This document shows positions 2,747-56,742 of a stretch of 64,000 bases of DNA, one piece after another. Position 1 is the stretch's first letter. The number at the start of each line of letters is the position of its first letter. The stretch covers positions 6,634,001 to 6,698,000 of the forward strand of contig JAOVFP010000002.1 in assembly GCA_025738555.1 (NCBI GenBank), written 5' to 3'. A model generated the notes under the pieces. The model was given only the letters and a program-made list of their open reading frames with translations, was not told where the DNA came from and made no database searches. This DNA is from Cyathus striatus. Lineage: Eukaryota > Basidiomycota > Agaricomycetes > Agaricales > Nidulariaceae. The position numbers and the translations under genes are program-made.

Positions 2747-2755
2747 ATGTACTTC

Positions 2756-2928
2756 CAGGCTCCTAAAACCATCCACTCGACTCGCATTGAGGGGGCCCCA
2801 TCCTACACATCAGTGATTTGTAATGTATGTACAAATAAAACCAATCTCAACTCTCCCCTCCTCAACACGAGTTAGCGGCTGGCAAATGTCGCCTCACGTG
2901 ATGTAGTCACCTTTTGCTGTGACCTTAA
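2756..2928 (+). repeat. Left terminal inverted repeat of the DUF6589/RecQ element
   Basis: Reads outward to inward as CAGGCTCCTAAAACCATCC, then a GGGGGCCCCATCCTA block, a CAACTCTCCCCTCCT block, and GGCTGGCAAATGTCGCCTC. The same blocks recur in the same order, reverse complemented, at 8905-9082. Confidence 0.85.
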
Positions 2929-3206
2929 ACTGACCTAAGATACTCTCACAAACCCTACAATAGGGCTACATATACTTATGTCAGCAATGTTTTTTCTACA
3001 ATACTTCTACAATACCATCATTTATAACATCTCAATATGGAATTCACATCAATTTTTGGGTAACATTGAGTAACACAGTGCAAGATCCATGCCAGCAATG
3101 GTGTAAAAGTCAACAGTGCAAACCATGCCACCCAACCAATGGAAATGGACTATTGAAGAAATCCGAGGGCTTGTACAGTCCAAATTTGACAAGTGTGCAT
3201 GTTGGA

Positions 3207-3681
3207 TGTTACGATTTTCTTTCTTTTTACATATGCTTTCTTCCAAAATCATTGACTTGTTTGGCATCACCTTTGATACCAAACACAAGACTTCTACCTA
3301 CACGGTTGTCATTCCATTTTGATTCATTCTGAGTCACTTTACTATACCTAGTTATACTTTCTTTCTTCTTACTACACTGCAGTAATGCACAGTTGATACA
3401 TGGCTTGATGACTGATTTGGTTATATTTTACTTATTATTAGTACAAGTTCATTTGTATTTAAACAGTAGTAACTTGGGCTGTAGAGCTCAAGCTTCAGCT
3501 TAAATCAAATTGGCTTTACTTTGATTCATTCACTTCACTCATACTTAAGTCTAAACAACTTAAGAGCTCATGAATTGAGACTACTTGATTTCGATACTGA
3601 TTCACTTGTTCTTTGAACTTGTAAATCATGTGACTATCGGACTTGTACAATAAAAGTCCCAACCAGAACTTTATTGTAACA
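3207..3681 (-). mobile_element. Solo LTR of the 9520-18962 retrotransposon family
   Basis: 475 bp beginning TGTTACGAT and ending TTGTAACA, colinear with the reverse complement of the LTR at 9520-10001. It is flanked by the 5-bp duplication TTGGA (3202-3206 and 3682-3686). Removing it and one copy of the duplication restores a continuous helicase frame through CACWMKMKIALVLY, so it inserted into a coding exon and its internal region was later lost by LTR recombination. Confidence 0.93.
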
Positions 3682-4854
3682 TTGGATGAAAATGAAAATA
3701 GCATTGGTGCTTTATTCAGGGAAACATGTCATAGGCTGTGCTGCAATGGGTGTGGGAAAAACACTCTCATTCTAGATCCCACTGGTTATGGCCCTCAAGG
3801 AAGGGCATGACAAAATGATGATCATGATCACACCACTGAATCTATTAGGAAAGCAAATGTTGAAATGTTGGCAAAGGCTAACATTTGAGCAATTGCTATC
3901 TCACAAGAGAATGCTGTGGTGAAGACATTCAAAGTAAGTGTTGTGTTTCAATTAACAGGAGTAATATGCTTACACACTGTAGGATGTTGGAGAGGGCATT
4001 TACCATGTTGTTGTGATGAGCCCAGAACTTGCAATGGGAAATGATCATGTTCAACTTCTGTGGGACCAGCCCAAAGTAGTCATGCAAATACTGAATATTA
4101 TCATAGATGAAAGTCAGTGTATGAGTCAATGGAGCTCATTCCAAAAGGAGTACTCACTGCTCAGCTCACTCCATTATATTATATCCCACAAGATACCCCT
4201 CTATGCAACAACTGGAACCTTGCCAGATTCTGTAATGCATGACATTAGCAAGATACTACAGCTTCAGCCTGATGAGATGGAGTACATACTGTGCTCAAAT
4301 AACCATCCTGAGATATGGCTCAAAGTGAAGACTATGGAATATCTGGTCAACAGCTTTCAAGACTTGGCTTTCATAATTCCAGATGGCTTTAAGGATGGGG
4401 ATGAGCCTCCACCAAAGTTCATCATATTCTTTGACAGCACAAAAGAGGCAGAGCATGCAGCCAAGTATCTGCAGGAGAGACTTCCACCTTCAATATGTGA
4501 TAATATATGTTACTTCCACTCCAAAATGACACCAGCATGGTGAGAGGAAAACTTTGATGCACTTTGTGATTCAACAATATGGGGGCTCTGTGCTACTAAT
4601 GCCTTTGGTATGGTGTGTATTCTGTTAGCCATCTTAATTAGTATTTCAACTGAATCCTAAACAATGTACACTTACAGGGTATGGATCTGCCAGACATCAA
4701 ACTTGTTGTCTGGTAGAAGGCATCTTGTGGGCTTTGTGTGATGTGGAAGAGGTTTGGTTGTGCAGCACAGGGGCAAGGTCAGGAGGGGATAGCACTGCTG
4801 ATTGTTGAGAAAAAGGACACAACTGAAGGAAGAGGTGACAGTGATATAGAGCAT

Positions 4855-5400
4855 GTAATATAGTGCATGTAACCATTATACAATATTATTAATAGAACCT
4901 AAACAAGATGGCCATAAAATATGAATGTAGAGTCGTTATTACCATGCAGAAATACACTATCTATATCCATAATATCAAAGAAATGCAAAATGAATTGGAG
5001 TAGTAATGTTAATTTGAATGAATTGCATATAGGTATATCACATAAGCTCAACCCCATGAGCTGATCAAAATGCAAAACCGAGGTTTTGCTTTAAACACAA
5101 GCACAGTCTATATTAATATACACTATTAGCTTATTTAAAAGTGTTACTGTTGCAAAAGTATCATTTCCCTCATTTTTATTCAATGAACCCCCTATGGGTA
5201 CCTGAGGGTTACGGGTCTTCAAGACCTGACCCATACCCATACCCACCAGTACCCTTACCCGTGACCTGTGCAGGTATGGTGTACCCATGCATTTGCCTAG
5301 TCGTCACAGTCCTTCAGGTCTATTTTGGGAATGATAAGTGAAGTGAGCACCCTTTGTTCTCAGCTATGAAAGTATGTTACTTACTCATGTCTCTAAGAAT
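4855..5400. other. Non-coding interruption in the helicase gene, with TACCCA-like repeats
   Basis: No conserved helicase sequence lies between the GIALLIVEKKD segment and the C-terminal cysteine region. 5195-5290 is rich in TACCC/GGGTA motifs (CCCATACCCATACCCACC), as in small repeats found in other elements of the window. It may be a long intron or a small insertion. Confidence 0.45.
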
Positions 5401-5879
5401 CAGATGATCATTTATACTGCAACACAACATCTGGTGGTTGTACCCATTGCAAGCCAAAAGTCTTCCCTTTCTGCCACAACAACTGCAATTCCAAGTACTC
5501 TGGTGACATAAGCAATTACTCCCCCCTTCCAAAGGAACATAGTGGACCAAGCAAGTCAAAGATCAAAGCCTTCAACCTGGGCCCACAACATGTTGAACTC
5601 AAGCAGGCCTTGACCACCTGGAGAGAGAAGGCAGCAAAGAAGAAATTTGGATCAGCAATGGTTAATAACTATGGTGTGCACCTATTGATGCCAGATGAAA
5701 TTGTGGAATGTATTATTGCTTGTGTGCAAGTCTTCAAAGTCGAAACAATCAACCATCTTCTGAAGGAAACAGGTTGGCTGAAGGAGCCATATTACACCAT
5801 GCCAGTACACCATCCAATCAAAGCAACCCCCATGTTTGCCCTGCAAGTACAACCACATCCTTGGTCATTCACCCTCTTG

Positions 5880-6232
5880 TGAAACCTATTTGTGCTATAT
5901 CCTTGGACACTTGCCCCCCACTTTCAGTTAACCACTCCCCTCTTCTTACAACACCTATTTGTGCTATATCCTTAGATGCTTGCCCCCCACTTTCGGTGAA
6001 CCATCCCCCTTCTCTTGTGACACCTATTTGTGCCATGTCATTGGTCGTATTCCCAGATGCTCATCCCCCTCCTCTTGTGACACCTGTTTGCATATCCTCA
6101 GTCAACCACCCCCCTCCTCTTGTGACACCTATTCATGTTGTGCCCTCAGTTGTATTCATGGACACTTGTCCCCCTCCTCTTGTAACACCTGTTTGTCACT
6201 CCCTAACTGTTCACCCATGCATTGAATACCTC
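5880..6232 (+). repeat. Proline-rich coding-type minisatellite
   Basis: Imperfect units built around CCCCCTCCTCTTGTGACACC, about 50-85 bases apart. In the 5708-6304 frame they encode repeated NHPPPLVTPICA-like blocks without a stop until 6304. It follows the conserved end of the helicase and may be a variable C-terminal extension or 3' sequence. Confidence 0.7.
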
Positions 6233-6634
6233 ACCCACCCCACTTGTTCAATGTCTCCTGTCCTTCTATTATCAATATCTGCCACTGTCCTCTCCAATGT
6301 CTAATCCCTTATCATCTCTGACTCCCATTCCCTTGCCTCAGTTTGGACTCTTCACTACACCTTCATCCCATGTGATGTGAACTCCATCTCAACAACCATC
6401 CCAGTCTCTTTTCACTGCCATTCCCATTGTCCCCTCTGCCACAATGTCCATTGCTGCCAATCCCAGTCAGTCAATTGTGGATACTGTATTCAGGTGAGGA
6501 GCTTGTGCCATTTCTCATTGCAGACATGCTAATGAAGTTCTCTGTCTCTATGCTTCTGTCAACTTTTTCATCCTCAAGCCAAGGGCCTTAGCTCTCTGTC
6601 CCAAGGGCTCTTGTACAGCTTCGACCTCTCAGCA

Positions 6635-8800
6635 TTAAATGTCAATACTTCCATCATCCTCAATCTTCAGGTCTTCATCAGGTAAGTCTATCCATTCCGA
6701 TTCAGCCTCTCCCCCAGTTTCAATATTGGTTGATTGTTGTGTTAGGAAATACTGCATGCCTTTTGCCATTACATCTGGTATACAGCATGTAGATTTGCGC
6801 CCTTGCTGTTGACTCCAGGTTCTTTTATCCTCCATATATGCTATCAACTTTTTGAAGGTTGCTTTCATGTTTGGTGGGGAATGTCATATAGTCTTATGCT
6901 TCAAGCAAAACATTTTTTCAAATTGAATATGTATGTTCTTAAAGACTTCAATCAATGCCGATTCTTTTAAGATTCTTTTCAGCAATTCCTACATGCTGAA
7001 TCACTTCATGCATGCACCGAAAACCTGGTTTTGTTTCAATTTTGGTTTTCTCACTTGGCTGAATTTTGCTGACATGATCCATTAGACTATTTTTGTCACC
7101 ACTTACACCCTTCATTTTTATGAACACTTGCCAAATGGCATCAGCACATGCCATTTTTAGGTGAAATAGTCCTAGCACTGCAATTATAAAGTGGAAGTGC
7201 CTTACTGGTGTTGGCTCCACTGAACATGATTCTAGGAGACTGTGAAGGCTCTCTAATATGAGTAAATCACCAAAGACTAATATAACTTTGTTTCCAGCAT
7301 CTGTCAGGTCTTTGTCCTTTGAGGTGTCACCTACTCCTGCTTGATTGAGAAAGGACTCCAATGCTTGTGCATTCTGTGCTGCTGTAGAAGGACTTAGGTC
7401 AAGTGTCTTGAGTGGTACCTGCCATGTTTTTGTCCTGGGTATTTGTTCAATTACCTTGGGATTTCCAAGAAGACAGTGATAATGCTGAAAGAATTTGGGT
7501 CCAAAATAAATCAAGTCATGCAAAATCTTCCAGGTGTTATACTGCTCCCACATTGACAAGCCATGGATGGGGCTCTTTGATAAAATGCTCTAGTACTTTT
7601 GTGAATGGTATTTGGTAAGAACTGTCTGCATCTGCCAATGTGTTATATTTTGACCTCTTCCACAGCTCTTCTGAACAGTCAAGGTTGCTTAATGTTACAT
7701 CATGCTCAAGTGGGAGCATGGTTCCTGTGGTCAGATGCACTAATGTGTCTTCAGGCCTCTTGACAGTTGGCACTGCATGCTTGAGATCAATATCCAAGTT
7801 GTCATATGCATATGTGGTAAGAAATGTCTGCCCCAACTGGTATGTCTCTCTATTAGCTTCCTGGGACAAACTCATCACAGCTTGGTTAATTGCTGTTGTT
7901 GAGATAGATAGACCAACTCAACTCAGCAGCTCACAAACTGCTTCAGGTGCATTACAAGAGTGCAAGAATATTCCTAGAACACTCTGAAGTGCATTACACA
8001 CTTGGTTGGTGCTCTGCATCATTATGCTTAGGCATATTACCTGCTTCTATAAAGTTACAGCAAGCATCATCCTCTGTTTCAATTTAAATTGAACCGTAAG
8101 CTTACAATTGTGATCAGAACTTTCTGTCACTCTTCCAAATGATCCTTTATATCCTCTGGCATGTCTTCTCCTTCCTCAACAATATCTTCAGCCTGATTCA
8201 CTTCTTCACCCTCAGACTTGGCTCCAATATCTCTCATTTCAATGTCACCATCATCACTGTGCAAATGGATTTCTGTTTCACCTCGAGCCTCTGATGCCAA
8301 TTCACTTGCACCCATTCTGCCTTGTTCTTGGCATTTCAAGTTATGTTTTTTTGTTTGCTTTGGATTTGCATCAAGCAGCTGAGCAAATAAGTCCCACAGA
8401 GCAGGTGCATATTTTTTCATCTTTCCCACTGTATCTGCTAAACTGAAATTGCACAGCTTTTCTTGTGTCATATTTGTGGCACCAAAGTGAAAGCCAGCAT
8501 TCTTGTCTGTCAATGTGGTGACTTCATGTGAATAGATTTGTTGCATCCTATGGCTGGTCCACTCTCTCACTATATTTGCTGTACTAGGATGTCCAGCAAG
8601 TGCCTGGTATATCTTACCACCATGCTCTGCAAGAGATTGCACTTGCTTGCTTCATATGAGGATAGAGTCATTGTCATGTAATAGATCTAGTAGAAACTCT
8701 GCAACAGTGATATTATTTTCAGAGAGTTTGTTGAGGACATTGCAAGTAGAGGGCAGCATCAAAATGATGGTAGATTCTTTGTCATACTTCACCTGCTCTA
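6635..8800 (-). pseudogene. DUF6589-type protein, decayed
   Basis: Matches the DUF6589 protein type that is abundant in Agaricomycetes. In coding order: an upstream segment (about 8800-8650), an N-terminal part with WTSHRMQQIYSHEVTTLT and APALWDLFAQLL (8127-8642), a middle part with AYDNLDIDLKHAVPTVKRPE (7537-7878), the core block VILVFGDLLILESLHSLLE followed by FHFIIAVLGLFHLKMACADA (6948-7559), and a C-terminal block with GRKSTCCIPDVMAKGMQ (6635-6868). An acidic stretch ends the 8127-8642 frame. Joining the blocks needs frame changes and passes stops, including a TGA before SKQVQSLAEH near 8650, so this copy is not intact, although some breaks may be introns. Function is unknown. Its place beside a helicase inside a TIR element makes it a candidate recombinase (inference). 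Confidence 0.82.
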
Positions 8801-8904
8801 TGCAGACACAAATGATCTTACATAATTCAAAAAATAGTAATAGCCACAAAAATATAAATAGCTGAATCATTATATTCAACCCTATCAGTGGGTTTATGGC
8901 AACA

Positions 8905-9082
8905 TTCTGAGGTCACAGCAGAGGGTGACTATATCACATGAGGTGACATTTTGCCAGCCTATCTTCACAGGAAGGAGGGGAGAGTTGAGTTTGGTTCTAT
9001 TTATATTTGTACATTGTTTGTACCAAGCTACTAGGATGGGGCCCCCCCTTCCTGTGAATGATAGGATGGTTTTAGGAGCCTG
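8905..9082 (-). repeat. Right terminal inverted repeat of the DUF6589/RecQ element
   Basis: Reverse complement of the left repeat, with point differences and small indels. The outer 18-19 bases are identical. It is followed immediately by the second copy of the 9-bp target duplication at 9083-9091. Confidence 0.85.
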
Positions 9083-9091
9083 ATGTACTTC

Positions 9092-9514: not shown

Positions 9515-9519
9515 GTGTA

Positions 9520-10001
9520 TGTTACGATAAAGTTCTGGTTGGGACTTTTATCATACAAGTCCGATAGTCACGTGATTTACGAGTTCAAAGAACAAGTAGA
9601 TCAGTATTGAGTTCGAGTCTCTATTCATGAGCTCTTAAGTTGTTTAAACTTAAGTATGAGCGAAGTGAATGAATCAAAGTAAAGCTAGTTCGATTTAAGC
9701 TGAAGCTTGAGCTCTACAGCCCAAGTTACTACTGTTTAAATACAAACAAGTTCGTACTAATAATAAGTAGAAATGTAGCTAAATAAGTCAAGATGCTACG
9801 CATCGACTGTGCATGACTGCAGCACAGTAAGAAGAAAGAAAAGTATACTAAGTAAAGTAAATGACTCAAGATGAGTCAAGAATAAGTGACAGTTGTGTAA
9901 GTAAAGAAGTAATGTGTTTGGTATCAAAGGTGATACCAAACAAGTCATCGAAATGTAAAGAAAACATATGTAAATAGAAGAAAGTAAAGAAAATCATAAC
10001 A
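9520..10001 (-). repeat. 3' LTR of the Ty3/gypsy element (482 bp)
   Basis: Begins TGTTACGATAAAG and ends AAATCATAACA on the plus strand. It differs from the other LTR at scattered transitions and keeps a segment of about 25-30 bp (around 9733-9752) that the 18506 copy lacks, so the insertion is not very recent. Confidence 0.95.
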
Positions 10002-10015
10002 TTATCCCCACATTA

Positions 10016-11400: not shown

Positions 11401-14400
11401 TCACATGATTGGTTCTGTGCATTGATTCTTCCATTTTTTCGGCATCTTGTGACCAACAATTGCTTTGATTTCCCACTCAGGTTTGGCTTCAATAAGGTCC
11501 AGGGGTGGTTCTAAGAAGTTTTTCCCATGGACAGAGGTTTCAACGTATGGCATGAGAAGAACAGTGTTAAAGACAGGATGTATGGTCCATTGTTCTAGGA
11601 GTTCCAATTTGTATGTATAAGGTGCCAATTTCTCAATGATCTTGAAAGGTCCTTCACATTGTGGTGCCATTTTTCTGGATGGGTAAGAGATGAATAGGTT
11701 TTTTGTGTCGAGCCACACCATATCTCCAACTTCATATTTTGTGAATCCTCGTCTTTGTGCTTCACGAGTTTTCTGTTGGGAGATTTGGATGAGAGCCTGT
11801 GCTTCTTTTCTGGCTTTGGCCATATCATCTATTCTGATCTCTGCTTCCCTTACATAAGTGGAGTCTCTCACAGTGGGAGTGGTGATCAGTTTGTATCCAT
11901 GCAATAAATAGAAAGGGGATCTTTGTGTGACTGAATTGACCTGAGCATTTCATGCCATTTCTGCTTCTGGAATGTGATTTGCCCATTCGTGTTGTCTAGA
12001 GCTGCAGAAACATCGAAGGTAAGTCTCGATTTCTTGGTTCATCCTTTCTGTTTGTCTGTCTGTTTGAGGGTGATAGGCAGTGGAGCCTTTCCATTTGATT
12101 TTATGGAAGTGAAGTATTGCTTGGAATACTTCTGCTATGAATCTTGTATCTTGATTGGAGATGATTGCGTTGGGGAGGCTGTATCATCTATAGAGTGTTT
12201 TTCAAATTAAGGTTGCCATTCTTTCTGCATTAAGTCCCTTCATGATGCAAGGTTCGAAAATTACCCCCTTAGTAGACCCATGGTCGACCATGACCATGAT
12301 TGCATCAAATCCTTCGGATTTAGGCAGATCAGTGATGAAATCCATTGATATTTGGGAGAATGGTCGTGTAGTTTCAGGGATAGGAATGGGATTGATTGGT
12401 GGTTTTGGTCTTTGATCATAGGTCATTTGTTGACAGGTGGCACATCCAGTTACGTATTGTTTGACAAAAACTCCCATCCCAGGCCACCAGTATTCCTTTT
12501 TGACTTCTTTTTCTGTTGAGCTTCATCTGTGGTGTCCAGCAGGTAGACTATCATGTTTGAGTGCTACAATGCTTCATCGTAATTCTTTATCTTCGGGAAC
12601 ATAGACTCTATCTCTAAAAAGGATTAGTCCACTTTCAATTTGCCAGTCATCCAGAGAGGAGTGAATAGGAGGAATGTCTTTGGCTTTGATAGCTGTGGCT
12701 ATTTTTTGGGCCAAAGTATCCTTTTCAGTTTGATTGACAACTAAGTTCCAAAGTTCAGTAGATATTAAATTGATGTGTAGATCTGCATCTAGAACATTAG
12801 CAAACCAGTTATCGTGTTTCATATCTAAAGTATTGATGAACCAGTGGTCAGGTAGGACTATTAGACCATTGTTTTCATGTTCCCTGTCAGGGGTTAAATT
12901 GGGTCGTCATGAAATCATGTCAGCTTCGAGGTTCTTTTCCCTTGTATGTGTTGCATGTTGATGTCAAAATCAGAAAGGAAAAGGGACCATTGTGCTTGTT
13001 GTCTGGTAACCTTTTGAGGTTCTTGATAGTATTTCAGGTTTTTGTGGTCAGAGAATACAACTATTTTGTTTGGGTGTCCTTCAAGTAAATGTTGCCATGC
13101 TTTAAAACCATGAACGATTGCATACAATTCCTTGTCATAAATTTGATAATTTCATTCAGTTGCTGTGAACATATGGGATATATATCCACATAGTTTCCAA
13201 AATCCATTCTTGTCTTCTTGTTTAAGAACAGCCCCTGTGGCATAGTCTGATGCGTCGACCAACATAGTGAAAGATTTCTCAGGATCAGGTATCCTGAGAA
13301 TTGGTTCTTTTAAGAAAGCTTCCTTGAGGTCGTTGAAGGCAAGTTGTTGTTCTGTACCCCAATTCCATGATTTGGTGTTCCTGGTTAGCTTGAGAATTGG
13401 TTCTATTCTTTTGCTATAGCAAGGGATAAATTGGTGATAGAAGTTACAGAATCCTGCAAATGATTGGATTTCTTTAACTTTGGTTGGGGCAGGCCAGTCA
13501 GCTATTCTGGCAAGTTTTTTTGGGCCCATTGCAATGTTGTTTGGCATGATAATCATTTCGAGGTAGTCAACTTCTGTTACCTCAAAGGAACATTTCTTGG
13601 GTTTTGCAAATAATCCATTATCCCAAAGTATCTGGAGGATTTCTCGTGTTATCTTCCTATGAAGTTCAAGATCATTTTTTGTGAAAATAAGTATATCATC
13701 TAGATATACTTGAACGAGTCCTTGAGAGATATAGTCTTCAAGTAGATGATTGATCATTTGCATGAAGGTTGCTGGAGAGTTGCAAAGTCCAAAGAACATG
13801 ATGGTAGGTCTAAAAATGCCTCTTTTGGTGACAAAAGCAGCCTTTGATCTGTCTTCTGGAATGATTTGTACCTTGTTGTATGCTCCTCAGAGGTCCATTT
13901 TCATAAATAAATTGGCACCTTTAAGATCTTCTATCAACTGTTTGATGTGAGGTAGTGGATAGTGATCTTTAATGGTTCCATTATTTAGATAATGATAGTC
14001 CTGGCATGGTCTCATGTCATCCGTGTCCTTTTTCCCTACAAAGAAGAATCCTGCAGTGTTTTCAGCATCTGTTGAATCTGGTAGAACTTCTTCGATATAT
14101 CCTTTTGGAGGTTGTCATTGATGAATTCATTCATTGCCTTTTCTTCTCGTATGCTAAGAGGATATACTCTGCTTTTCCAGGGTAAGAAATCTTTCTTCAT
14201 TTGAATGTGATGATCTCATGGTCGTGAAGGTGGGAATTCTTCTGAGGTGTCCTTATCAAATACGTCCTTGTAATCCCAAAGGTGTTTAGGTACCATCTGT
14301 TCAAAGGTTTTTTTTACCTTTTTGGGTTCATAGGATAGTTGTTGTGAGATTGTCTGTTTTACTCTGATGGGAATTCCATATTTTTCAAATATTGGTTCCT

Positions 14401-18505: not shown

Positions 18506-18962
18506 TGTTATGATAAAGTTCTGGTTGGGACTTTTATCATACAAGTCCGATAGTCACGTGATTTACGAGTTCAAAGAACAAGTAGATCAGTATTGAGTTC
18601 GAGTCTCTATTCACAAGCTCTTAAGTTGTTTAAACTTAAGTATGAGTGAAGTGAATGAATCAAAGTAAAGCTAGTTCGATTTAAGCTGAAGCTTGAGCTC
18701 TACAGCCCAAGTTCATACTAATAATAAGTAGAAATGTAGCCAAATAAGTCAAGATGCTACGCATCAACTGCGCATGACTGTGGCGCAGTAAGAAGAAAGA
18801 AAAGTATACTAAGTAAAGTAAATGACTCAAGATGAGTCAAGAATAAGTGACAGTCATGTAAGTAAAGAAGTAATGTGTTTGGTATCGAAGGTGATACCGA
18901 ACAAGTCATTGAAATGTAAAGAAAACATATGTAAATAGAAGAAAGTCAAGAAAATCATAACA
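18506..18962 (-). repeat. 5' LTR of the Ty3/gypsy element (457 bp)
   Basis: Colinear with 9520-10001, with TGTTATGATAAAG and AAATCATAACA ends and the GTGTA duplication just beyond. A small internal deletion lies after CTACAGCCCAAGTT. Confidence 0.95.
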
Positions 18963-35279: not shown

Positions 35280-38200
35280 TTTCAGCCCAGTTCTTTCTCT
35301 TCCTTCACTCAATAATCCTGAACCTACTCTCATAGGTAGGGGAAGAGGAAGAGGGAGAGGGAGAGGGAGAGGAGGTGTCATACAATGGGTTAATCCTGTT
35401 ATAAATCCAAATGTAAATGATAATCCTGTAAGTTTACTTAATATATATTTCAGGCTCCATTACAATTTCATCATTGGAATCCTCCAGGTGTTGATCCAGC
35501 AGCTCCAATACCTGTTGCACAACCTGATATTGTTCAGGTGCATATACTATCAATACTTTACATTTTACAATTCTAACATTTATCACTTTATAGGATATTC
35601 AATGGATGGTCCCCATTCTTGCTGATCCAGTTCTATTGCCTACGTATGATCTTCCCATACCTCCCAGGTGAATTCAGATACCATTAGCCAGAAGGCCTTA
35701 TAATTCTAATTGGCCAAAGTTTACTGTTGGAAAATGGAGATAATTTGTTCTGATTGTGGAGCTTTACATTGAGAAAAGGAACAATTAGCTAAATCATCAA
35801 AATTACACTCTAAGTTTGGCATGTGCTGCTTTTCAGGAAAAATTAAATTGCCACAATGGGAGCCTGCCCCTCCTGAACTACAGAATTATTTGCATGGAAA
35901 TAATACCAACTTGAGAAACTCTGTAAACAGATCAGACAATATAATAGTGCTTTAGCTATGACATCAATGGCAGCAGGTGACATTGATCAAAGTTTAATAA
36001 ACTGTAATGGTCCATATACTTTCAGAATTCAGGGAAGAGTTTATCATTTTTCTGGATCTCTTTACCTTGAACAGGGTCAGAATAGAAGATATGCCCAGCT
36101 ATATATTCATGATGGATCAGAAACTGAATAGGAAACTGCACAAAGGTGAATAGATGTTCATTCTGCAAATAGGGGGTGTCTTCATTATATTATGCTGGCA
36201 TTACAGCACATTTTAATGTGTGATCATCTTGGCATTCAATTATACCAGCAAGCCAGAGATTGTACTCAACATATGGGACCTAATGAAAACTGTTTGATTA
36301 CTCTTATAGCTAATCCTCAAACTGATCAACATTGATATAACAATCCAACTGTTAATGAGATTGCTGCTATACTACCTGGAGATGGTGATCAACTGGAAAA
36401 CTCAAGAAGCATTATTGTGCATCTACATGGAGGAACACTAATGCAAATTAGTGAAGTTAATCCACTTTAATGGACACTTCATTACCCACTATTGCTGACA
36501 ACTGGACAACTGCTTTGGCATCCAGAAATTAAATATGCAAAAAATCAGGAGGTGGATGATGTAGAGTTTATGGATGCTTTAAACCCTGAGCAGGAAAATA
36601 ATATCCATCCTCAAAAACAGGATCATGTTTCTCAAGCTGAATATTTTTGCTATTATTTACACCCAAGAGTAGGGGAACAACTTCATTTATTTTTCTCAAG
36701 AAAATTATTTCATAAATTTATTGTTGATGTATGGGCATGCTGTGATCAATTTCACTTAAATTGGATCTCATATAATCAAAGGACAATCTGTGCAGAATCA
36801 TACCAGACCTTAGTCAATGCTGTTACAGCCAATGAAAATGTTCAGGGTGGTGATGTTGACCAGAGAATTATTCTTCCCTCTTCCTTTACAGGTGGTGCAA
36901 GATATATGATACAGAACTGTCAAGATGCATTGGCCACCAACTGTTATTATCATGGAGCTGATCTCTTTATCACTGTTACTATGAATCCTAGTCATCCAGA
37001 TGTTAAAGATGCTTTGGAAGCAGCAGGCTCAGGACTAATACTCAATGACTGTCCTGATATTATACTCCATATATTCCATCAAATGCAAGCTGATCTCATC
37101 CATCACATATATAAAGAAGGAATTCTGGGTCATGCAGTTGCATATGTCTATACTATTGAATTTCAAAAGCATGGATTGCCACACATGCATATGATTGTCT
37201 TTCTGGCTCCTGATGCAAAGTTATAAACTGCTGAGGATGTTGATAGTATGCTCAATGCTGAAATTCCTGATCCAGACACACATCCAGAACTTCATGATTT
37301 GGTTATGAAATGTATGATCCATGAACCATGTGGTTCCAATAATCCAAATGCCAGATGCATGAAAGGTGGACAGTGTTCAAAAGGATTTTCAAAACCATTA
37401 TGAGAACAAACTGTTATTAATGAGGATTCTTTTGCAAAGCTTAGAAGAATGCCAGGAAAAAAATACAAGCTTCCAAATGGCACAGAAGTTGATAACCACT
37501 GGGTGATTCCTCACAACTTATTTCTACTATGGTTTTATTACTGTCATATCAATATTGAATGCATTGCTTCTATTAAAGCAATCAAATATATCTACAAGTA
37601 CATTTACAAGGGACATGATTGCACCACCATGAAATTTGGTACAGCTCAGGATGAGCCTAAATTATACTTGGATGCTTGCTATGTATCAGCTCCTGAAGCT
37701 GTCTGGTGCTTATACTTTTTTTTGACTACATGATGAAGTTCCTAATATCATTCAATTTGCAATACACCTTCCTAATCAATGGACTGTTACCTTTGATCAA
37801 ACAGCTGCAGATTTACAGGAAGTTGTTCAACAAGCTTCAGAACAAGATACTACACTCACAGTATACTTTCAAGCCAATGTAAACCATCCTGAGGCACACT
37901 TTATTATATCAGGATATGCCAAACAAGTTTGTGTGGAATGCAACTCAACATAAATGGACACCATGCCAGAAAGGTTTTGCTATTGGGTGCATATACTATA
38001 TTCACCCTACTGCTGGAGAGGCATACACTGTTGACTACAGTGAAAGGAGCTACTTCTTTTGAAGATCTATGAACTGTAGATGGTGTTCCTTGTCCAAATT
38101 TTTGAGCTGCATGTTTAGCAAGAGGTCTTCTGGAAGATGATAATGAGTGGTGAGAGTGTCTACATGATGCAGCTCATATAAAAACTGATGTACTTAGTAC

Positions 38201-46993: not shown

Positions 46994-48010
46994 AGTAATT
47001 TACACTCCCCCAAGAGGTCTGTATGGATCTGTACGGATCCGTACAGACCCGTACAGACCTGTATAGATACCATACAGAATTTATATAGTAGCTATTATTA
47101 TTATTAGAGGTGATTATTCTATATGGATTCTGTGTGGATTTATGCATTGCTGCCTTGTCACACATGTCAAGTGTAACCCTAGGTGAAAAGTGTCACACTA
47201 TACAAAATCCATGATATACTCAATATATAGTATCATTCTCAATGCATAGTATCACACTTAATGCATAGTGTTATGCTTAATGTATAGTGTCACACTTAAT
47301 GCAGAGTGTCACACTCATCACTTAGTGTTATGCTTAATGCATAGTGTCACACTCAATACTTAGTGTCATGCTTAATGTATAGTGTTATGTTTAATGTATA
47401 GTGTCACACTTAATGCATAGTGTCACGCTTAATGCATAATGTCACACTCAACACTTAGTGTCACACTTAATGCATAGTGTCATGTTTAATGTATAGTGTC
47501 ACACTCAACACTTAGTGTCACACTCAACACCTAGTGTCACGCTTAATGCATAGTGTCACACTCAACACCTAGTGTCACGCTTATAGTGTCACATTTAATG
47601 TATAGTGTCACACTCAACACCTAGTGTCACGCTTATAGTGTCACATTTAACATATAGTGTCACACTCAACACCTAGTATCACACTCAACACCTAGTGTCA
47701 CGCTTATAGTGTCACATTTAACATATAGTGTCACACTCAACACCTAGTGTCATGCTTAATGCAGAGTGTCACATGCAAGGAAATAAGTATAATAAAATTC
47801 TGTACAGAATTTTCAGGTCTGTAATGCGGAATTCCGAGGAATTCTGCATAATCCGTACAGAATTTTCGGAATCTGTGCGGAATCTGTACAGACCCAAAAA
47901 AACCCCTGCCAAAATGAAAAAAATCTGTGCAGATTCCACACGGACTCCGAAAATTCCGTACGGATTCCGCACAGATCCGTACAGAACACATGGCTAAGTG
48001 TAAAGAGCTC
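46994..48010. mobile_element. MITE-like element with 19-bp satellite, copy 1
   Basis: Runs from AGTAATTTACACTCCCCC to AGTGTAAAGAGCTC, with an 8-T tract on both sides that may be its duplication. It shares its whole structure (end sequences, GTACGGATCCGTACAGA-rich blocks near both ends, internal satellite) with 55562-56324 in the opposite orientation. No protein is encoded; the long mirror frames at 47728-47997 come from the palindromic subterminal sequence. Confidence 0.85.
47165..47770 (+). repeat. 19-bp satellite (TGTCACRCTYAAYRCHTAG)
   Basis: About thirty tandem units of 19 bases such as TGTCACACTCAACACCTAG and TGTCACGCTTAATGCATAG, some shortened to 14. The copy of this element at 55562-56324 has fewer units (about 55825-56080), so the array varies in length. 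Confidence 0.9.
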
Positions 48011-49842: not shown

Positions 49843-50170
49843 CAGCATGATCATTTACCATAGAACTAGCAGAATATTACTATGCTCAAATGTGATCATT
49901 TACTATAATACTAGCAGAATATTCCCATGCTCATATCTGATCATTTACAATAGAACTACCACAGTATTCACATACTCAAATGTGATCATTTACATATTAC
50001 CACCAGAATATCTCACAATCAAATGTGATCATTTACAATAATACTAGCAGAATATTCCCATGCTCAAATATGATCATTTATGATAGAAATAGCAGATTGT
50101 TCCCACACTCAAATGTGATCATTTACTAAAATATTAGCAGAATATTCCCACACTCATAAGTGATCATTAG
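49843..50170 (+). repeat. 45-bp tandem repeat, left arm
   Basis: About seven units of the form TGATCATTTACTATAATACT + AGCAGAATATTCCCATGCTC + AAATG. The junction word TGATCATTTA recurs every 43-46 bases. Confidence 0.92.
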
Positions 50171-51224: not shown

Positions 51225-51795
51225 ACCTAATGATCACTTATGAGTGTGGGAATATTCTGCTAATATTTTAGTAAATGATCACATTTGAGTGTGGGAACAA
51301 TCTGCTATTCCTATCATAAATGATCATATTTGAGCATGGGAATATTCTGCTAGTATTATTGTAAATGATCACATTTGATTGTGAGATATTCTGGTGGTAA
51401 TATGTAAATGATCACATTTGAGTATGTGAATACTGTGGTAGTTCTATTGTAAATGATCAGATATGAGCATGGGAACAATCTGCTAGTATTATAGTAAATG
51501 ATCACATTTGAGCACAAGCAATTAGCTAGTCCTATGTAAATGATCACATTTGAGCATGGGAATATTCTGCTAGTATTATAGTAAATGATCACATTTGAGC
51601 ATGGGAATATTTTGCTAGTATTATAGTAAATGATCACATTTGAGTGTGAGCAATCAGCTAGTTCTATGTAAATGATCACATTTGAGCATGGGAATATTCT
51701 GCTAGTATTATAGTAAATGATCACATTTGAGCATAGTAATATTCTGCTAGTTCTATGGTAAATGATCACATTTGATTGCCTAAGCAATCATTTTA
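51225..51795 (-). repeat. 45-bp tandem repeat, right arm (inverted)
   Basis: About twelve units that are the reverse complement of the left-arm unit. Some contain a shorter variant (GAGCACAAGCAATTAGCTAG). The arms differ in length, so the arrays have changed independently since the arms formed. Confidence 0.92.
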
Positions 51796-52135: not shown

Positions 52136-55100
52136 GTGATTATGATTCTGATTCATTTTCCAATTCTTTATTTTATTCATATCCTGTTGAGACTTACAAT
52201 AAAACTCTTAGGACTGCTGCTTATGCAACTCCAACCACTGCTCGACCTCTTTTGACTTCTTGGACTCAACGTGCGCTAATTGAAGAAATGAAAACTACCT
52301 GCTTAGCTAGGAAAAAGTACAAGCCAGTCGACCAAAAAGTTAGACCGGTTCCGACCTATATGCCTGACCCAGTGGGACAAGTTTTTAAGAAAATAGAGAT
52401 TCCGATGCTAAGCCCCCTTTCTCTTGATCCTCCTCCTTTATCTTCCTTCTTGCCAACATCATGTTTGACTTATGAACATTTTCATCATATTCTAGGTTCT
52501 GTACCTGAGGGTTTCTTGACCTAGAGAACTTGATCTCTTAGGACATGTGCTCAACACCAGACAGCAAGCACTCACTTTTTCAGATGAGGAAAGGGGTACA
52601 TTTTCGCAAAAATACTACCCTGACTATGAGATTTCTGTTATAGAACACACACCATGGGTTCAGGCACCCATCCAAATCCCTAAAGCTATTGAGGATGATG
52701 TTCAGTGACTGCTACGCAGCCAAATTAATGCTGGGAAGGTTGAAGTCTCAACTGTGTCTTACCGCTCTTGCATGTTTGTTGTCAAAAAGAAGCCTCTACT
52801 CCTATGCACCATTGCTCCCGGGGAACCAAAGCAGGACCAACCCCCTGGCTTGTGGGTAATTCAAGATGTTCAATAACTTAACAAGGTTATGGTTTGAGAT
52901 TTGGCTTTGCCTCTGAGGGTTGAAGATTTTGCTGAGTCATTTGTGGGGAGAACAATTTACAGGCTGATTGATTTACTTTCAGGATATAATGGGCGACGTC
53001 TAGCTGTGATATCACAACCTCTCACCACTTTTATTTGCATGGAAGGACCATTGCGTGCAGGTACACTTCCTCAAGGTGGATGTAACTCAGTCTTGGAGTT
53101 TCAGAAGTGCACCATGCACATGCTTCGCGAAGAGATCCCAGACAATGGGAACGTGTTTATTGACGATACTGGGGTGATGGGACCTTTTTCTCACTATGAT
53201 GGCAAGGAAGTTGCACCGAATATAAAATGCTTCATTTATGAATTCGCTACCACCTTGGACCATTTCTTTGCTAGGTTCATAGAAGCTGGAATTACAGCAT
53301 CAGGGTACAAACTCATCCTGGCAACACCAAGTATGAAGATTGTTGGCACCATTGTTTCCCACCATGAATGGGAGCTCGAGCATGGGCTAGTATCTAAGGT
53401 GTTAAACTGGGGACCACTTGAAAATGTTACTGATGTTCATTCATTCTTGGGGACTGCTGGTGTGGGACGAAAATGGATCAAGGGATTTTCAATTATAGCA
53501 AGGCTGCTCACTATTCTTCTTAGGTCAGACCAGCCTTTCGTATTTGGGGATGGAGCTCAATACGTGAAAGATACTTTACAAAAGAGGATTTCTTCTGCCC
53601 CTGTTCTTATTCATTTGGAGTACAACTTAGCTAAACAATTTTCTCCTCTAGACACTTTACTGTGCCCCTCAGAAGTGGGATTGGTTATCTTTGCTGTCAA
53701 CGCATGTCAAGCAGGTGCAGGCTGGGCTATCTACCAGCTAAGAGAAGATGGTTGCCATCCGGTACTTTTTGGGTCATGCACATATAATCCAGTCGAAAGT
53801 TGGTACTCACAGCCTGTTCGTGAACTCTATGGGGCTTTCCATGGTGTAAAAGACACTTGTCACCATCTTTGGGGAATTCATTTTCAGATGGAAGTTGATG
53901 CAAAGTTCCTACAACAAATAATATCTCAGCTGGATTTGCCTAATGCCCAACTGACGTGTTGGGTTACTTTTCTCTTACTATTTGATTTCCAGGTAGTTCA
54001 TGTGCCTGCAGACAAGCATGTTGTACTTGATGGACTTTCAAGATGTAAGCATACAGATGAAGACTCAGAGGATGAAGACCCAGAAGCCTATCTCGACCGC
54101 ATGCTAGCGCCAGTTGATGCTCAGACTTTCTGTTTACAGCTCAAAGAACTCCATTACCGCCAACGGCCCATTCCCCAAGTACCTTTTGCCGATTTCATAA
54201 CTCAAACTAATGCCATTTCTGTATCCTTCTTAGGTACTCAGGACATCAGTACTATTGGAGGATCAGCACCATGTGTTAAGGACTTTGCCCATGAGAGCCA
54301 GCACGAAAATTCACTCCCTACTTTCACTTCATTATGCTTCACTGATGAACAAGGGTATCAAGGACAGGAGTTTTCAACCCGAAAAGTTGCTTATGAACAG
54401 GTTGAGACATTTGGGCTAGGAGATGAGGAAATCAAACTGGAGTTTTCCACCTTCACTTCTTATGTTCCATTAGACTTAGATTCTGATGAAAATTTACAGG
54501 CTCCATACTATCTTTCATGTGCTACACATTGCTTTGGTGTGCATGACTGAGATGCTTCTGCAGAAGAATGGCAAGAGTACAAGAACTATTTGCTAAATGG
54601 TACGATTCCTACAAGGTTTCTCACTGACAAAGCTGCCAAGAAAAGGTTTATTCAATGTACCAAGCCCTTCTTTGTGTTCAACAATTCGCTTTGGAAGCTA
54701 GGCAGGGCAGGTATGAACCCTAGGCTGGTGGTAACTGATTTAGACAGGTGTGTTGAACTTGTGGCACAAGCACACAATGAAGTGGGCCACCGGGGACACG
54801 ACTCGACTTATCAGCTACTTGTGGAACACTATTACTGGCCCAACCTTTACAACCAGGTCACATACTTTGTTCGGTCATGTTATATCTGTCAATTATGCTC
54901 TCAGAAGAAACCCATTATACCCTATTCGTCTACTTGGCATACTGCTATCCTACACCATTTTGACTTGGACACAATATACATGGAGTGAGGCCATGGAGGC
55001 ATGAACTTCCTCTTACAAGTGATCGAACCTTCAATTGAATGGCCAGAAGCTCAAGCTGCATGCAAGAACAATAGCAAAACATGGGCCAAATTTATCTACG

Positions 55101-56742
55101 AAGATATCATTTGCTGCTATTCATGTATTCCTCTCTTCATTATGGATGGGGGATCTGAGTTCAAAGGCACTGTCGATATTCTCTTCCAACAGTATGGCAT
55201 CAAAGTCATTCTCTCAAGTCCTTATCACCCAGAAGGCAATGCAACCACTGAGCGCACTCATCAAACTCTTGTCAATTCGCTTCTTCATTTGGTCAGAAAG
55301 GAAAGTGCAAAATGGCTGCTTATGATTCCCTCGACTCTCCTAGCAATGTGTAGTATGGCCTCGAAGATGACAGGCTACTCTCCCTTTTACATGTTATATG
55401 GCAAGCACCCATTCTTCTCATTTGACATTGCTGACAAGACCTGGGAACTGCAATGGCCCGAGGTTAGGAATACTGAAGATTTGATAGCTCTTCGAGCCCA
55501 TCAAATTGCTCATCACGACAAAGTGGAGGTCAAGGCTCTTCAGAAGCAACATGAAGAACGGGAGCTCTTTACACTTAGCCATGTGTTCTGTACGGATCCA
55601 TGCAGAATCCGTACGGAATTTTCGGAGTCCGTGCGGAATCTGCACAGATTTTTTTCATTTTGGCAGAGGTTTTTTTGGGTCTGTACAGATTCTGCACAGA
55701 TTCCGAAAATTCTGTACGGATTACGCAGAATTCCTCAGAATTCTGCATTACAGACCTGAAAATTCTGTACAGATTCTGTACAGAATCTGTACAGAATTTT
55801 ATTATACTTATTTCCTTGCATGTGACACTCTGCATTAAGCATGACACTAGGTGTTGAGTGTAACTAAGTGTGACACTAAGTGTTGAGTGTCACACTATAC
55901 ATTAAACATGACACTATGCATTAAGTGTGACACTATACATTAAGCATGACACTAAGTATTGAGTGTGACACTCTGCATTAAGCGTGACACTAAGTGTTGA
56001 GTGTGACACTATACATTAAGCATAACACTATGCATTAAGTGTGATACTATGCATTGAGAATGATACTATATATTGAGTGTATCATGGATTTTGTATAGTG
56101 TGACACTTTTCACCTAGGGTTACACTTGACATGTGTGACAAGGCAGCAATGCATAAATCCACACAGAATCCATATAGAATAATCACCTCTAATAATAATA
56201 ATAGCTACTATATAAATTCTGTATGGTATCTATACAGGTCTGTACGGGTCTGTACGGATCCGCATGGAATCTGTGCGGATTCCATACAGATCCGTACAGA
56301 CCTCTTGGGGGAGTGTAAATTACTGAAGAATGGCAGAAAGCTGTTGATAATTTTAACCAAAAATATGCTAAGTTTTTTTCTTCGCATGACTTCGAGGAGG
56401 GTACTTGGGTACTGGTTTATGAGTCATGGTTGGATACTCAGTTGGGAAACAAGGGAGCCTTGTGATAGATGGGACCTTATATCATTCATAAAAAGCTTAA
56501 TGACACCACTTATAGGTTGCAAGAACTTGATGGGGTTGTGCAACGAGAGTCAGTTTCTGCACATTGTATTAAAATATTCTATTATAGGGAGGACAATCAA
56601 ACAATCAAGTCTGTCTCCCCCGCCTTATACAACATATACCATGCTGCTATGACTTCCTCAGATGCCTCGACACTGCTTTCCCACCTCTCCAACATCAATG
56701 AGCTACCTTACCATCCATCCATTGTCTTATCCAACTGAGCTA
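52136..56742 (+). pseudogene. pol: Second Ty3/gypsy pol, split by a MITE-like element
   Basis: A different Ty3/gypsy lineage from the one at 9.5-19 kb. The N-terminal part (52136-52700) has KKYKPVDQKVRPVPTYMPD. Reverse transcriptase has RLIDLLSGYNGR and the active-site FIDD (53155-53166) in place of YxDD, then HSFLGTAGVGRKWIKGF. RNase H has FAVNACQAGAGWAIYQ and LDGLSRCKH. Integrase has HEVGH-type HRGHDSTYQLL, CYICQLCSQ, DLDTIYM, FIMDGGSEFKG and EGNATTERTHQTL as the three acidic sites. The frame is lost at the inserted element 55562-56324 and resumes as EWQKAVDNFNQKYAKFFSSH and WVLVYESWLDTQLGNKG. Stops occur at 52525, 54551 and 54989. There is no intact copy and no left LTR. Confidence 0.9.
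55562..56324. mobile_element. MITE-like element with 19-bp satellite, copy 2
   Basis: Inverted relative to 46994-48010. It starts GAGCTCTTTACACTTAGCC and ends GGGGGAGTGTAAATTACT. The flanks GAAGAACGG (55553-55561) and GAAGAATGG (56325-56333) match at 8 of 9 bases, a target duplication; removing the insert restores the retroelement frame ...KQHEE to EEWQKAVDN. Length 763 bp. Confidence 0.9.

Follow-up and report, generated by a model that had tools for sequence, protein, structure and literature searches.

Here we focus on a 6,327-bp element that carries the remains of a DUF6589 gene and a RecQ-like helicase gene and lies within a 64,000-nucleotide stretch of DNA from Cyathus striatus (assembly GCA_025738555.1, contig JAOVFP010000002.1, positions 6,634,001 to 6,698,000; hereafter the window, in whose coordinates features are given). 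The element occupies positions 2756-9082 and is flanked on both sides by ATGTACTTC, which forms the left (2747..2755) and right (9083..9091) target-site duplications. Its terminal inverted repeats (TIRs), of about 170 bp, extend over 2756..2925 on the plus strand, where the repeat starts with CAGGCTCCTAAAACCATCC, and over 8910..9082 on the minus strand; they align with 75% identity, and the outermost 19 bp (2756-2774 and 9064-9082) are identical in inverse orientation. By simple arithmetic, an exact 9-bp match at fixed ends would arise by chance with a probability of about 4e-6. The exact inverted ends, TIR length, perfect 9-bp duplication and 6.3-kb size described in a previous sequence-only reading of this DNA were thus all recovered. 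Additionally, a paralogous unoccupied site was found about 87 kb downstream (G000:C2:6729983-6730251), which matches the joined flanks of the element with 85% identity over query bases 16-299 of 300 and contains a single copy of the 9-mer with one base changed. Since this relative spans the joined flanks with only one 9-mer, the element is an insertion, and its status as a genuine TIR-bounded insertion is confirmed.

The two genes are convergent, as had been proposed. DUF6589 was recognized by a match to PF20231 (E 8e-31), whereas the helicase was found by alignment to that of a related element; for a detailed map, the related copy L042 served as reference for both genes, and a full-length protein (P0002) as a further one for DUF6589. 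On the plus strand, the helicase begins with a piece at 3143..3208, identified by tblastn with the L042 helicase, and is then split by a nested repeat of about 480 bp (3206..3682) resembling a miniature inverted-repeat transposable element (MITE). It continues with two overlapping pieces (3683..3939), each containing one stop and together covering a degenerate Walker A motif (GCAAMGVGKT, 3734-3763), followed by a piece at 3986..4636 with one stop, which includes motif II (DESQ) and a CMSQW loop of RecQ type (4100-4132). The end of the Helicase_C core, with one stop, lies at 4663..4845, and a Cys-containing C-terminal extension at 5400..5786. On the minus strand, DUF6589 comprises an N-terminal part with two stops (8094..8741), a part with one stop and the YDN motif of the first predicted catalytic acid (7564..8043; motif at 7786-7809), a core with FGD, the second predicted acid (7260-7277), and GLFH (7155-7172) at 6975..7598, and a C-terminal exon with one stop (6638..6976). 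An internal deletion at about 6976 removes the equivalent of residues ~504-676 of the full-length relative, including the stretch that holds the third predicted acid. Most of the pieces aligned for either gene are interrupted by in-frame stops, five in DUF6589 (one within a two-frame overlap) and four in the helicase. With this deletion, the stops in both genes and the repeat inside the helicase, the window copy is dead and degenerate. The nested repeat also occurs at 9519-10002 and 18506-18962, with 79-91% identity between copies and TGTTA.../...TAACA ends; a possible flank duplication of 5-7 bp was noticed by eye around the copy within the helicase gene.

In the host assembly, which totals 107 Mb in 24 contigs, the same gene pair recurs many times. 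At least 105 DUF6589 matches were detected, which merge into 93 loci, so that the family is multi-copy and not single-copy. When a single helicase exon, taken from a related element, was used as the query, 113 genome matches were obtained, and a helicase match was located within 8 kb of 79 of the 93 DUF6589 loci, invariably in convergent orientation (79/79), compared with an expectation of ~1.9% under random placement. At the remaining 14 loci no helicase match fell inside the 8-kb limit, a single locus having one at 8.5 kb, and 31 of the 113 helicase matches had no DUF6589 match within that distance. Natural fusions of the two proteins were sought with a chimeric query, which covers only proteins sharing exact words; four matches were returned, none containing both domains.

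Insertions bounded by four kinds of ends (families A-D, with differing end sequences) were then compared, and exact duplications of 9 or 10 bp were observed in 39 of the 50 insertions tested. Each family includes copies with and copies without DUF6589; by coordinate reading, exact duplications accompany 13 of the 20 DUF6589-bearing insertions and 26 of the 30 insertions without a DUF6589 match. In family A (ends CAGGCTCC...), 15 of 17 listed pairs were tested, the other two having no flank sequence; 12 showed an exact 9-bp duplication and three had 1-2 mismatches. In family B (ends TAGTCTCGG...; 11 of 16 pairs tested, with 3 of 40 end matches excluded from pairing), exact 9-bp duplications were present in eight insertions, while the two cases with one mismatch and the single absence, in element L059, were judged by eye. 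Family C (ends TAGTCCGG..., with TIRs of ~307 bp and two copies that are 99.85% identical) displayed exact 9-bp duplications in 8 of 12 chosen pairs and none in four, including pair C11, which covers two nested end pairs. Family D (TAGGCTC...GAGACTA; 12 chosen pairs, of which pair C5 extends only 6 bases beyond the right end) had exact duplications in 11, of 9 bp in four and 10 bp in seven; two large copies could be read either way and were counted as 10 bp because the element stops at GAGACTA in the other copies. This family has a distinct right end, and no nearby inverted partner indicative of long TIRs was found among 40 scored left-end matches. The expectation that DUF6589 genes elsewhere would lie beside RecQ-like genes, within TIRs and 9-bp duplications, therefore holds for the pairing and for most duplications, if 10 bp is admitted, but not everywhere for long TIRs, which family D lacks. 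L059, with 452-bp TIRs that are 100% identical, and L086 retain perfect or near-identical TIRs yet lack a target-site duplication, perhaps owing to recombination between copies. A second, different open reading frame (ORF) with helicase-like motifs, recognized by eye, lies directly against a family D element on its left side (L058:1083-2411, minus strand).

Unoccupied sites were found for all three elements searched, out of five whose flanks had been extracted. For element C6, a relative spans the junction with 99% identity. The case of C13 is weaker: many repeat copies cross its junction with up to 94% identity, but their similarity starts only ~20 bases ahead of that point, and the one copy aligned departs from the 9-bp duplication at three positions.

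The coding content was assessed in seven elements, six belonging to family A and one to family B, which together gave 105 stop-to-stop ORFs with a minimum length of 95 amino acids. Pfam matches comprised DUF6589 (11 ORFs), DEAD (11 ORFs) and Helicase_C (6 ORFs), along with six further families (SecA_DEAD, DUF2620, ResIII, ORF29, zf-MYST and DUF6063) that were weak or helicase-related. No transposase family was detected in these ORFs at E 0.01, in agreement with the view that no known transposase is encoded. The MULE transposase domain PF10551 was likewise absent from the 105 ORFs and had no match genome-wide.

Structural models point to a transposase role for DUF6589 itself. AlphaFold models of two subfamilies, which are only ~17% identical, reached predicted local distance difference test (pLDDT) scores of 88.8 and 89.2 and a predicted template modelling (pTM) score of 0.89 each. 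The best solved match of both was Hermes (VIA Z 10.8 and 12.3), with lower values for the P element (8.6/9.3), RAG1 (6.8/8.9) and Transib (6.2/8.5); the first 30 VIA matches of the first model and the first 25 of the second were exclusively DDE transposases or RAG1. The first 14 Foldseek matches in PDB were also all DDE transposases or RAG1, with low TM-scores, and a PDB sequence search with a DUF6589 profile gave a best E of only 0.12. The two top-ranked matches in a viral structure library, first an uncharacterised phage protein (TM 0.06/0.08) and second a hAT-like pandoravirus protein (TM 0.18/0.23), were not used. DUF6589 is accordingly predicted, on the basis of both models, to adopt a transposase-type RNase H-like fold. 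Across 146 sequences, near-invariant positions include D228 (139/140), D406 (144/144), H441 (145/146), D653 (138/138) and E657 (132/136), a D, D, H, E/D set compatible with a DDE enzyme, and E579 (140/142) is an additional candidate acid. A predicted fold of this kind and three conserved acids (D228, D406, and E657 or D653) are what the sequence-only reading had proposed to look for, naming the core block with FGDLL as the place to search for the acids. FGD would supply the second acid; the first is predicted in YDN and the third, as judged from aligned ranges, most likely lies in VEHxN, which is absent from the window copy. GLFH is predicted to occupy a C/DxxH-like position.

Sequence divergence among family A copies suggests that selection maintains both genes. 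The ratio of nonsynonymous to synonymous substitution rates (dN/dS) could be computed for DUF6589 in 6 of 10 pairs, giving 0.07-0.11, and for the helicase exon in 5 of 10, giving 0.02-0.08. Synonymous sites were saturated in the remaining pairs, and these figures are rough because dS exceeded 1 throughout. The DEAD and Helicase_C matches lie within elements, indicating that the helicase is element-encoded. The family D helicase ORF matched TIGR00614 (5e-47), with WRN as its best solved relative (3e-26), and a family A helicase exon matched the same model (5e-21); both scores, 160.7 and 75.0 bits, respectively, fall under the NCBI RecQ cut-off of 219.8 bits. No RecQ zinc-binding or RQC Pfam domain was detected in the two helicase ORFs, where Pfam could miss divergent forms. 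By sequence similarity, the protein is best described as RecQ-like, with a RecQ-type core.

The window element is very probably a decayed DNA transposon that encoded a DUF6589 DDE transposase and a RecQ-like superfamily 2 (SF2) helicase; here the fold and catalytic residues are inferred from models and conservation, and selection on both genes from the dN/dS values. According to this scheme, DUF6589 would recognize and bind the element ends, cut them and join them to target DNA with a stagger of 9-10 bp. The helicase, read from the other end, would most likely unwind end or target DNA, either while strand transfer takes place or afterwards, or else assist repair, replication or processing of an intermediate, its step being one that we infer. 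Copies consisting only of ends are presumably mobilised in trans. The low helicase dN/dS, together with the presence of a helicase at 79 of 93 loci, suggests an important role for this protein, and the helicase exon had a lower dN/dS than DUF6589 in all five jointly computable pairs. Such values would also suit a replicative (copy-out) route powered by the helicase instead of plain cut-and-paste aided by it; paired duplications and empty sites, however, are to be expected from either pathway, and copy-out has perhaps one chance in four of being correct.

For DUF6589, a Pfam family without an assigned function, the reported abundance in mushrooms was borne out: 560 protein clusters were retrieved in one search and 145 in another, those named by organism belonging to mushroom-forming fungi. 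No literature naming DUF6589 was found in a search that excluded subscription journals and Repbase, and therefore no printed link between DUF6589 and a transposase was found. If the DDE transposase assignment is true, hundreds of "hypothetical proteins" would become annotated transposon genes, and the resulting profile could be used to annotate such elements together with their short derivatives. It would also make testable the reason for which a DDE transposon carries its own RecQ-like helicase.

Elsewhere in the window, minisatellites with 19-bp and 45-bp units are found at 47241-47773, 49848-50168, 51229-51775 and 55865-56080, each kind having a second array in inverted orientation. ORFs with a Helitron-like N-terminal domain and with retroelement reverse transcriptase/RNase H were noted at 36471-37223, 13155-13886 and 52898-54547, so that the window contains other mobile DNA as well.

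With regard to classification, AcademH elements occur in fungi and animals. Judged by published traits, the window element likely belongs to this type. In a 2023 paper, AcademH is given duplications of 9 or 10 bp and AcademX of 3 or 4 bp, a difference tied to helicase versus nuclease (PMC10045372); a second paper reports AcademH from Basidiomycota, Ascomycota and Mucoromycota, and there DEAD and Helicase_C appear as domains belonging to AcademH, KolobokH or Helitron (PMC10799480). Putative non-autonomous Academ elements are described as widespread in Marasmius oreades in a mushroom genome paper (PMC8290104). The proposal that DUF6589 is the transposase of a helicase-carrying group is thus supported by pairing, duplications and fold; the group itself has probably been described already, and the apparent novelty is that DUF6589 can be given a function.

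The same mechanism could operate under a different label, in a DDE lineage separate from Academ that gained its RecQ helicase independently, like KolobokH. The nearest solved folds, Hermes (hAT) and the P element, would fit such a lineage, as would recurrent helicase capture, KolobokH having a RecQ helicase too (PMC9587614); duplications of both 9 and 10 bp in combination with a DEAD/Helicase_C helicase in a fungus, however, reproduce the traits reported for AcademH, and this alternative is rather unlikely. Similarly doubtful is a bolder form, in which DUF6589 transposons would constitute their own superfamily near hAT and P, keeping through deep divergence (~17% identity between subfamilies) a convergent RecQ-like helicase on which the DDE reaction strictly depends, and tolerating either long TIRs or nearly repeat-free ends. 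Mutator elements and Mutator-like elements (MULEs) have long TIRs and 9-bp duplications. The idea that DUF6589 is an accessory or passenger, with the element ends mobilised in trans by a different transposase, for instance that of a MULE, draws on this likeness in families A-C and on the many short, non-autonomous copies. It is very improbable and was rejected given the genome-wide absence of PF10551, the seven elements whose ORFs revealed no transposase family, the predicted DDE-type fold and conserved acids of DUF6589, and its occurrence with four different end sequences. Family D also differs from Mutator elements in lacking long TIRs.

Among other known systems, hAT transposons typically generate 8-bp duplications. 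Although both DUF6589 models match Hermes best among solved folds, membership in hAT was rejected, since the elements duplicate 9-10 bp; in addition, no hAT Pfam domain occurs in the 105 ORFs. The helicase resembles RecQ helicases (WRN, BLM and bacterial RecQ) in its TIGR00614 and WRN matches and differs from them in its sub-threshold scores; Pfam detected no zinc-binding or RQC domain in the two ORFs, which may still carry divergent forms. KolobokH, a DDE transposon that likewise carries a RecQ helicase, is known from fungi alone, with Kolobok using TTAA (PMC9587614); identity with KolobokH was rejected because the duplications of the DUF6589 elements measure 9-10 bp and vary in sequence, unlike the 4-bp TTAA. 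AcademH shares with them the helicase, 9- or 10-bp duplications and presence in Basidiomycota, and the 9/10-bp mixture of family D fits it closely.

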